From Spirosoma linguale DSM 74 (lineage in GTDB: Bacteria > Bacteroidota > Bacteroidia > Cytophagales > Spirosomataceae): a stretch of DNA of 64,000 bases. Within the stretch, counting starts at the first letter, position 1, and each line of letters begins with the position of its first letter. A program made the translations under genes and the position numbers. The DNA lies in contig CP001769.1 in NCBI GenBank assembly GCA_000024525.1, positions 8,014,758 to 8,078,757 on the forward strand. Reading direction: 5' to 3'. The notes beneath the pieces are model-generated. The model saw only the letters and a program-made list of their open reading frames with translations. It was not told the DNA's origin and did no database searches. Of this stretch, positions 2,504-3,996 are shown piece after piece.

Positions 2504-3730
2504 ATGGTACAAAAACCTCTACTTTGTCTACTTATGGTAACCCTGCTGACTCTACCGAAAGTTGTGTTCGGTCAGACGCTTAACCTGGGGACCACATCCG
2601 GATTTGCACTGTTCACCGCAAACGGAGCACTTACCAATGCAGGGGCATCTGCTATAGTAGGCGATATTGGTACGAACGTGGGAGCCATTAGTGGTTTCGA
2701 AACGGCATCCGTAACGGGCAGTACCCGTCCTGCCGGCAGTACGCAGTCCGTGCAGGCGGCCCTTGATGTTGTATCGGCTTATAATTCGATGGGTTTATTT
2801 ACCTGCGGTACCCAGATAGCCGCTGAGTTAGGCGGTCAGACGCTGTCGCCGGGAGTCTCCTGTCAGAGTACGGCTTCGCCTACCACCTTGAATGGAACGT
2901 TAACATTAAGCGGGTCAGGAACCTTCATTATCAAACTAAGTAGTGCTCTGGTCACCGCAACAAACTCCAGTATTGTGCTGACAAATGGTGCTACCGCTAA
3001 CAATGTATTTTTCCGAATAGAAGGAGCGGCAACGCTGGGTACCGGTTCTTCGTTCAAGGGAACTATACTGGCCCTGGGTGCTATCGTCCTGAACACTACA
3101 AACCTTGAAGGAAGAGCCCTGTCGACAACCGGAGCCATTACCCTGAATGCCAGTAACGTTACGAATGTAGCAGTCGCCAACCCTCTGCCGGTTTCGCTGG
3201 CGTCCTTCACGGTAAAGGCGCAGCCCAATCATACTGTAAGAATAGACTGGGTAACATCGCTGGAAACCAATAATAAAAATTTCCTGATCGAGCGCAGCAA
3301 AGACTTAAGGCTCTTTGAGACCGTAGGTGTCGTGAGCGAACTGGCCCCTATGAGTAACGCTCTGAAGACTTACAATATGATTGACGCGATGCCTTATGCA
3401 GGTACCAGTTACTACCGCCTGACCCAAACCGATCTGAATGGTAAGGCCAGCGTTTACCCGGCTGTTTCGGTCGTGTTACGGGACGATGCCTATGGAGTAT
3501 TTCCCAACCCGGTTGTGGGTGAAGGTAGGTTTGGCCTTCGGCTGGATGAGCCCGAAACGGCAACGGTAAAATTTTATAGTGCGGACGGACGTGCCTTACC
3601 ACTTCAGAAGACGGGCGTTGAGTCGGGCAATCTTCTCCTGAAAATGAGCAGCAAACTCGCAACCGGGGTGTACCTACTAACCGTTGAAGAACGGGGTCAG
3701 GCCCGTCAGCACCGTATTATTATCGAGTAA
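2504..3730 (+). CDS. Secreted ice-binding-family (DUF3494) protein with type IX sorting domain
   Basis: A 408-residue exported protein. A signal peptide (about residues 1-23, ending VVFGQ) is followed by a DUF3494 ice-binding beta-solenoid domain at about 24-228. That domain is rich in Thr, Ser, Ala and Gly, with phrases such as GDIGTNVGAISGF and FFRIEGAATLGTGSSFKGTI. A linker and Ig-like region follow. The C-terminal part, about 330-408, starts YGVFPNPVVGEGRF and ends VYLLTVEERGQARQHRIIIE, the pattern of a type IX secretion type A sorting domain. Known members bind ice or act as surface adhesins; which applies here cannot be told. SprA and GldF, parts of the type IX and gliding machinery, are encoded elsewhere in this window. 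A short RiPP-like gene follows after 49 bases and could share its transcript. Confidence 0.88.
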   Translation: MVQKPLLCLLMVTLLTLPKVVFGQTLNLGTTSGFALFTANGALTNAGASAIVGDIGTNVGAISGFETASVTGSTRPAGSTQSVQAALDVVSAYNSMGLFTCGTQIAAELGGQTLSPGVSCQSTASPTTLNGTLTLSGSGTFIIKLSSALVTATNSSIVLTNGATANNVFFRIEGAATLGTGSSFKGTILALGAIVLNTTNLEGRALSTTGAITLNASNVTNVAVANPLPVSLASFTVKAQPNHTVRIDWVTSLETNNKNFLIERSKDLRLFETVGVVSELAPMSNALKTYNMIDAMPYAGTSYYRLTQTDLNGKASVYPAVSVVLRDDAYGVFPNPVVGEGRFGLRLDEPETATVKFYSADGRALPLQKTGVESGNLLLKMSSKLATGVYLLTVEERGQARQHRIIIE

Positions 3731-3779: not shown

Positions 3780-3923
3780 ATGAGCAAAAAAGCTATACAT
3801 CATATATCCGCTTCTGTGCCTAAAAAGGCCTATAAGACCCCCAGGATCAAATCGCTGGGTAGTGTGAAGCAACTGACGTTAAAAACAGGTTCGGCCGTAG
3901 ATGGTTTTGGTACGTTTGGTTAA
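3780..3923 (+). CDS. Orphan lasso-peptide-type RiPP precursor (47 aa)
   Basis: ATG at 3780 to TAA at 3921-3923 encodes 47 residues. The leader has Y18, P21, I23, L26-G27 and L32-T33, i.e. YKTPRIKSLGSVKQLT. This is the YxxPx(I/L)xxxG...LT motif that lasso-peptide leaders use to bind the RRE protein (B1). With T33 at the usual -2 position, the predicted core is KTGSAVDGFGTFG, whose Asp at core position 7 could close a seven-residue macrolactam ring. A Lys at position 1 is unusual, and an alternative core beginning at G37 would give too small a ring. No lasso cyclase (asparagine-synthetase-like), B1/B2 or transporter gene occurs in the window, so this is an orphan precursor. It lies 49 bases after the ice-binding-type gene, and its stop codon sits inside a hairpin. 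Confidence 0.7.
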   Translation: MSKKAIHHISASVPKKAYKTPRIKSLGSVKQLTLKTGSAVDGFGTFG

Positions 3924-3937
3924 CCGCTTCGGTTAAC
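3919..3937 (+). other. Small hairpin over the RiPP stop codon
   Basis: GTTAACCG at 3919-3926 and CGGTTAAC at 3930-3937 are perfect reverse complements separated by three bases. The stem contains the TAA stop codon of the precursor gene. Its right arm shares bases 3934-3937 with the left arm of the larger hairpin, so the two cannot be fully paired at once. Confidence 0.6.
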
Positions 3938-3996
3938 GTCTACATAAAAATAGCCTGACTGGTCATTCCAATCAGGCTATTTTTATGTAGACGTTA
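3934..3996. terminator. Bidirectional terminator with 25 bp perfect stem
   Basis: Bases 3934-3958 are the exact reverse complement of 3972-3996. After one mismatch, TGG/CCA pairs inside the 13-base loop. The stem carries AAAAATAGCCTGA on the left and TCAGGCTATTTTT on the right, so a GC stem followed by a T-run is read in both directions. It separates the convergent RiPP precursor and DUF5009 gene. The outer 12 bp of stem beyond the T-run is longer than a usual terminator. Confidence 0.85.

Follow-up and report, generated by a model that had tools for sequence, protein, structure and literature searches.

The open reading frame at 3780-3923 (+) of the window, the 64,000-nucleotide stretch of the Spirosoma linguale DSM 74 genome analysed here (C1:8,014,758-8,078,757, at the end of contig C1 of the 8.49-Mb genome), is, as judged from sequence, a real gene encoding a lasso-type precursor peptide. 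We read it as one member of a split, multi-copy lasso system in which a single enzyme set would serve the precursors, each precursor would form a unit with a partner gene, and the product would be coupled to the cell surface with participation of a C25 peptidase; the probability of this reading as a whole is put at roughly 0.55. The leader and the enzymes are recognizably of the known lasso type, while the scattered pairing with T9SS genes and the C25 peptidase in the enzyme locus are the new features of the predicted system. An earlier note on this DNA had noticed neither the T9SS partner gene that precedes the precursor nor the C25 peptidase encoded with the maturation enzymes. For most lasso peptides a natural role is not known. 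The copying of these precursors together with genes for exported adhesin-like proteins, and the presence of a T9SS-tailed C25 peptidase in the enzyme locus, suggest that the peptide acts at the surface in a structural capacity or in sorting.

The gene specifies 47 amino acids plus a stop codon, exactly as described earlier (47 codons, a leader and a 13-residue end). The leader of 34 amino acids (3780-3881, +) has the pattern Y-17 xx P-14 x I-12 ... G-8 ... T-2 L-1, and is followed by the predicted core KTGSAVDGFGTFG (3882-3920, +; stop at 3921-3923), with a predicted ring from K1 to D7 and the tail GFGTFG. In the numbering of the peptide the leader residues are Y18, P21, I23 and T33, with K35 as +1; the YxxPxL motif and T-2 of lasso leaders are thus present, with Ile at position -12 where the published motif has Leu. 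Since the published register places YxxPxL at -17 to -12 (available text of PMC10368454), the register observed here supports the lasso-type assignment made earlier, as does the conservation of the family described below. The acceptor of the lasso macrolactam is an Asp or Glu at core position 7-9 (PMC8498205, PMC10368454, in the portions available), and D7 occurs in 69/69 members of the genus. The K1-D7 closure already proposed fits the invariance of both residues, the bond itself being predicted; by our own count the ring would have 22 ring atoms, and the accessible part of PMC8498205 gives 7-9 residues for such rings. A ring with L34 as its first residue (T at -1, eight-residue ring) is less likely, as it would move Y to -16 and would also imply a nine-residue ring in most precursors of another genus, g8 (core after T = KGKxGSxxD), and a ring of ten or more in loci L224 and L233.

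A Pfam scan of the peptide gave no match, and two NCBIfam lasso models scored under their curated cut-offs (NF033528, lasso_cyano, 16.6 against 33 bits; NF033521, lasso leader, 12.9 against 19 bits), so that the peptide is not filed under either of them. The remark that the gene is too short for the usual gene callers was right only in part: many of its relatives do carry an annotation, which in some cases reads "lasso RiPP family leader peptide-containing protein".

A protein search of the S. linguale genome revealed five precursors, the window gene and four paralogs located at C1:702,357 (in the maturation locus), 7,388,788, 7,409,699 and 4,361,208; their alignment contains twenty invariant positions. 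Profile A1, searched over 36 genomes of the genus, gave 75 matches in 27. Four low-scoring matches (23-26 bits) were excluded, one being another lasso type and three lacking an intact precursor, with a stop inside; among the other 71 one (23 bits) was judged false and one represented another lasso type, leaving 69 taken as real, in 27 genomes. T-2, L-1, K1, G3, S4, D7 and P-14 are identical in 69/69, and Y-17 and G-8 in 68, in a family gathered by a profile, which favours conserved members. The codons of the invariant leader and core residues vary, S4 being encoded by both TCN and AGY. The leader, whose conservation in relatives the earlier note had made a test of its reading, is thus conserved across the genus; a chance ORF is ruled out by this conservation and by the four paralogs. 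The cores of 68 precursors (one of the 69, with an altered C-terminus, is omitted from this count) comprise 55 distinct sequences; cores are more alike within than between genomes (0/2000 shuffles reach the observed value), a pattern that common descent could also give. Orthologs of the window gene in two sister genomes (47 and 46 aa) are preceded by the same T9SS gene and followed by the same 381-aa gene; between the window copy (G000) and the G027 ortholog there are three synonymous and two non-synonymous codon changes.

Neither a cyclase nor a B2 gene was found within the window, which bears out the earlier statement that no maturation enzymes are encoded in these 64 kb. The only PF00733 match of the genome lies at C1:698,944, and the only PF13471 match at C1:701,490, both outside the window. 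In contig coordinates this maturation locus is ~7.3 Mb from the window precursor. Its gene order (L018:4176-13627) is C25 peptidase (+), putative lipoprotein (-), cyclase (+), nucleotidyltransferase-like gene (-), B2 (-), B1 (-), precursor (-) and T9SS protein (-). The cyclase scores 113.6 bits against PF00733 and 318.2 bits against its best lasso model, NF033535 (under the cut-off of 525). True asparagine synthetases carry a glutaminase Cys, which the N-terminus of the cyclase, MGGIAG, lacks. B2 exceeds the cut-off of NF033537 (70.5 against 33 bits). B1 scores 66.6 bits against PqqD and 65.7 bits against NF033536 (lasso PqqD; under the cut-off of 80), and its matches in the PDB are TbiB1 (E 1.1e-8) and another lasso PqqD chaperone; NF033535 and NF033536 are "exception" models in NCBI's marking. 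The maturation enzymes also include a PF14907 match of 134 bits. The whole-genome search recommended earlier found B1, B2 and the cyclase, though not beside the window copy, in the C1 ~699-702 kb region; a cyclase, the absence of which would have spoken against the earlier reading, exists, and a truly orphan precursor is ruled out by this one complete set.

Among the 36 genomes, precursor and B2 occur together in 26, neither occurs in eight, and one genome has each without the other: where B2 stands alone, the genome possesses a distant lasso locus; where the precursor stands alone, a cyclase gene adjoins it and the genome is 80% complete. For 41/69 precursors the flanks read (in general 4 kb on either side, shorter where a contig ended, and 1.5 kb for three of the S. 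linguale copies) contained no gene for cyclase, NTase, B1 or B2, five of the 41 having B2 4.2-5.7 kb away; the remoteness of the window copy rests on the genome-wide PF00733/PF13471 search. All 41 remote precursors retain T-2, K1, G3, S4 and D7. In G011 and G002 the cyclase, NTase, HprK-like kinase, B2 and B1 genes stand together with no adjoining precursor; the three precursors of G011, a single 5.80-Mb contig, are >20 kb from the cyclase, and the sole precursor of G002 is on a different contig from the enzyme locus. In G009 the sole precursor is likewise on another contig, where it adjoins a B1-like piece; the B1 of the enzyme locus is reduced. One complete enzyme set elsewhere in the genome, together with two species having the set and no adjacent precursor, supports the action of the enzymes in trans that had been proposed earlier, and we consider this the best reading of the sequences; as the genomes are related and gene pairs have been copied, these counts and those given below are inflated. 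The first step of the proposed mechanism is the one that is well supported: B1 (RRE), whose single gene lies 7.3 Mb away, would bind the leader, B2 would cut after T-2/L-1, and the asparagine-synthetase-like cyclase would join K1 to the side chain of D7, this one set maturing the precursors scattered over the genome. With 41 of 69 precursors lying apart from any maturation gene in the flanks read, genome mining around enzyme clusters probably misses many lasso precursors.

The gene preceding the window precursor, from which it is separated by 49 nt, encodes a 408-aa protein with predicted T9SS export (2504-3730, +) and would be the first gene of a two-gene unit. Residues 38-220 form an Ice_binding/DUF3494 domain (PF11999, 122.8 bits; PDB 5uyt_A, E 1.4e-55). 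The C-terminal tail passes TIGR04183 (37.2 bits, cut-off 23) and scores 24.6 bits against PF18962, under the cut-off of 27. By its sorting domain the protein belongs to the T9SS type A cargo, its export and the removal of its tail being predicted. The partner-specific C-terminal module (3113-3727, +; PLPVxLxSFxA ... ERSKDL ... YYRL ... YGVxPNP ... RQHRxxxE), with the T9SS tail at 3497-3724, was aligned in 12 partners.

A T9SS-tail gene, recognized with a local tail profile, lies directly upstream on the same strand in 56/69 precursors of the genus, including 33/41 remote copies and 23/28 copies near the enzymes; 13/69 have none. Fifty-five of these 56 genes are 17-143 nt away and one is at 358 nt; in three tandem copies nearer upstream tails are found at 33, 63 and 89 nt. 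TIGR04183 is matched by 52/61 same-strand upstream proteins (the whole S. linguale genome has 62 matches) and the ice-binding model by 11/61. In S. linguale itself a T9SS-tail gene precedes four of the five precursors. That such neighbours are a by-product of abundance was rejected, since 62 tails in 8.49 Mb would hardly give four out of five; a rough binomial estimate is 3e-8, for which 7,100 genes and independence of the copies are unproved premises. The fifth precursor (L023, C1:4361205-4361342) is preceded by an IS3-type transposase gene, and its leader no longer has Gly-8. The matching loci in G027 (L059) and G007 (L062), identified by the same 237-aa downstream gene, carry a T9SS partner upstream; loss of the partner and decay of the precursor may go together at L023. 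Locus L060 (G007:C8:1220847-1228557) contains four T9SS-precursor pairs in ~8 kb, three with the same core, which indicates that the unit of tandem copying is the pair.

Most of the partners belong to one subfamily of T9SS proteins. A profile of the 12 partner C-termini, which was built from partners and thus favours them, recovers 36 members of at least 300 bits in the genus, 34 of which precede a precursor. At 150 bits or more 43/56 stand beside a precursor, and members occur in 23/27 precursor-bearing genomes and in 0/9 others; ten regions were read for the 13 exceptions, with no precursor within 700 nt, two of these regions being cut by contig ends. The four S. linguale members of at least 298 bits all precede a precursor, the next match having 142 bits, and no precursor was found near the three weaker relatives of the module in this genome (112-142 bits). 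In a tail tree computed from 43 partner tails chosen by a motif filter and 20 hand-picked, mostly high-scoring controls out of the 62 of S. linguale, 41/43 partner tails fall in one supported clade and two elsewhere, the program warning of long branches and few columns. The module regular expression matches 0/20 control tails.

A TAnnTTTG box is situated 34 nt before the partner gene and another within it at 3526; none was found in the 49-nt gap. From the promoter-like box at 3526 the precursor could be transcribed alone. Between the converging genes that follow lies a hairpin with a 25-bp stem (3934-3996; RNA fold -45.5 kcal/mol, z -12, 0/200 shuffles as good). A paired change in the G027 copy keeps the pairing, and a different hairpin occupies the same place in G007; it probably terminates transcription of the pair and, from the - strand, that of the 381-aa gene. 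The short gap, the boxes and the strong hairpin after the precursor suggest that partner and precursor are co-transcribed. An AraC-family regulator gene (1818-2399, +; PF12833, 61.4 bits), a weakly attached part of this neighbourhood, is also found upstream of the orthologous pair in the two sister genomes (95.9% and 81.1% identity), and local control of the pair by its product is possible. As the second step of the mechanism, gene order suggests that the precursor would be co-expressed with the adhesin-like T9SS protein encoded upstream, and that the two would be duplicated and scattered as a unit.

A search of the S. linguale genome for T9SS sortases revealed an ordinary PorU (1251.8 bits) and the C25 protein of the lasso locus. 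The latter scores 150 bits against the PorU model NF033707, under the cut-off of 420, and is therefore classed as a C25 peptidase rather than as PorU; its membership of family C25 follows from PF01364 (233.8 bits, cut-off 23). It carries a TIGR04183 tail of its own (25.3 bits). His614 and Cys647, kept in 27/27 C25 rows (the S. linguale copy counted twice), are 33 residues apart, which is the spacing in gingipains; a phmmer search of the PDB with this protein gave no relative at E 0.001. An ortholog of at least 58% identity is present in 26/27 precursor-bearing genomes, the exception being G009, which has precursor and cyclase without a close C25 or a strong partner; 0/9 genomes without a precursor hold one, matches there being at most 38%. 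The gene is single in 25/26 genomes, with two in G021. The cyclase is 0.8-1.8 kb from it in 24/27 copies, and no cyclase was found within the stretches read around the other three. In six genomes a C25 relative of 37-40% lies 0.8-1.8 kb from the precursor of a second lasso subtype, which has the core KGGSxxD. In G011 (C1:491569-494819) the C25 gene is broken by a stop, and all precursors of this genome lie away from the locus. The putative lipoprotein near cyclase and C25 (L018:7433-8134, 233 aa) has a lipobox-like start and gave no match in a Pfam scan; it is possibly an immunity, receptor or inhibitor protein.

The third step of the mechanism is the least certain. Here the mature lasso peptide and its adhesin-like partner would meet and work together at the cell surface, and the C25 peptidase would act on one or both of them, most likely processing or sorting the C-terminal domain of the partner in a lasso-dependent manner.

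Matches to the precursor extend beyond Spirosoma. Profile A3 has matches in 102/222 genomes and 15/36 genera of the family, Spirosoma included; among 390 genomes drawn from the order 46 match at E 1e-4, all within the same family. Sixty loci read in other genera yielded 64 precursors, comprising 48 with T-2 and K1xGSxxD7, 13 with KxGSxxD at a different distance from T, two with G1 and D8, and one other. TIGR04183 is found there in 26/46 same-strand upstream proteins within 300 nt, and in seven of ten scanned downstream proteins, which were picked by eye from 42 near same-strand ones. That the T9SS gene lies upstream or downstream depending on the genus argues for a functional tie over inherited order. 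In the loci read of genus g8, precursor, lipoprotein, cyclase and C25 occur together, with a lipoprotein-like gene upstream and no T9SS gene, so that the partner is not universal.

Matches to the query C25 protein occur in 24 of these 60 loci, g8 without its upstream T9SS partner among them, and matches to the query lipoprotein in 22. This recurrence, the position of C25 next to the cyclase in most Spirosoma copies and the complete identity of K1 are the arguments for regarding the lasso peptide as an inhibitor or regulator of a gingipain-like C25 peptidase at the surface, the T9SS protein being substrate or carrier; some gingipains cleave after Lys. We think this possible but unlikely, since it leaves unexplained why the precursors have been copied with T9SS genes and yet the close C25 gene is single in nearly all genomes.

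It is doubtful that the peptide is a diffusible antibiotic or signal, with the partner only a carrier, receptor or immunity-like protein sharing its promoter. Most of the known lasso peptides act against bacteria or bind receptors, the tails of the present family vary to the extent of the 55 distinct cores, and the locus retains a putative lipoprotein; near-identical cores in one genome, paired with different surface domains, would nevertheless be unusual for antibiotics. No exporter gene was identified in the maturation locus, nor was an ABC exporter or an isopeptidase recognized among the scanned genes of the S. linguale locus.

A long shot is the proposal that the C25 enzyme is a dedicated sortase for the partner subfamily, which would cut off the T9SS tail of the partner and join the new C-terminus to the free side-chain amine of Lys1, where PorU uses the amine of the linking sugar of LPS. 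The lasso peptide would then be a covalent part of the surface protein, a protease-proof tag or tether. A reaction of this kind would account at one stroke for the invariance of Lys1, for the tails forming a subfamily of their own, for the pairing and for the presence of a C25 gene among the maturation genes; if true, it would be a new way of building a bacterial surface.

On another view, the pairs would have left the maturation locus by copying, and the scattered ones would now be decaying, functionless relics. This view could draw on the S. linguale copy beside the IS3 transposase gene (C1:4361205), with its lost Gly-8, and on the reduced system of G009. It is improbable in face of the retention of T-2, K1, G3, S4 and D7 with varied codons in every remote copy, and of G011 and G002, where the precursors found are all away from the locus. 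A reuse of the leader by other enzymes, giving a product that is not a lasso, is very improbable: PqqD-like RREs do occur in several peptide classes and the window peptide falls under the NCBIfam cut-offs, but a lasso-type B2 accompanies the precursor in 26/27 precursor-bearing genomes, and an acidic residue is retained in the core at the distance that suits a ring.

The closest known counterparts of the proposed Spirosoma system are the split-B1/B2 lasso systems paeninodin, pseudomycoidin and Bsf of Bradymonas (PMC9266682, PMC10368454), with which, on the available text of these papers, it has in common the YxxPxL leader at -17 to -12, T-2, the PqqD-like B1, the B2 protease and the cyclase. 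By annotation its nucleotidyltransferase-like gene resembles PsmN, which adds hexoses to the phosphorylated lasso peptide (PMC9266682, accessible part), and the HprK-like kinase of some relatives resembles PadeK/PsmK/BsfK. Unlike those systems, as far as the same portions describe them, the precursors are scattered and mostly paired with genes for T9SS surface proteins, the locus carries a C25 peptidase and a lipoprotein, and the core has K1 rather than Gly1, with a predicted seven-residue ring closed by Asp. Genome-scattered precursors served by one enzyme set are also described for the prochlorosins and SyncM lanthipeptides (PMC10783134, in the part available); in Spirosoma the peptide class differs and the cores are few, often near-identical and mostly provided with a surface-protein partner. 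T9SS cargo is sorted by PorU and attached at the surface to A-LPS (PMC13086638 and PMC7468200, available passages). The Spirosoma partners share the type A tails, and the locus enzyme belongs to the C25 family, which includes PorU; it differs in being itself T9SS-tailed and in its place beside a lasso cyclase. With gingipain-type C25 peptidases it shares PF01364 and the conserved His/Cys pair, and it differs from them in being encoded beside lasso enzymes. Literature searches combining lasso peptide with T9SS (as the abbreviation only) found no paper joining the two; within the records available, lasso peptide with Spirosoma gave nothing related, and with gingipain or C25 peptidase no paper linking them.

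Two further observations concern the wider family. An HprK-like kinase gene is inserted between B2 and NTase at L155:6095-7015 and L157:5660-6580 and is missing from the S. linguale locus. The invariant Ser4 is a candidate target of this kinase by analogy with BsfK of Bradymonas, which phosphorylates Ser3 according to the available text of PMC10368454. Finally, a second type of lasso precursor (LTLGxGS...D; L112:4027-4101, L145:7102-7293) is accompanied by a distant cyclase of its own (28-30% identity); it combines G1 with D8, and the main type K1 with D7.
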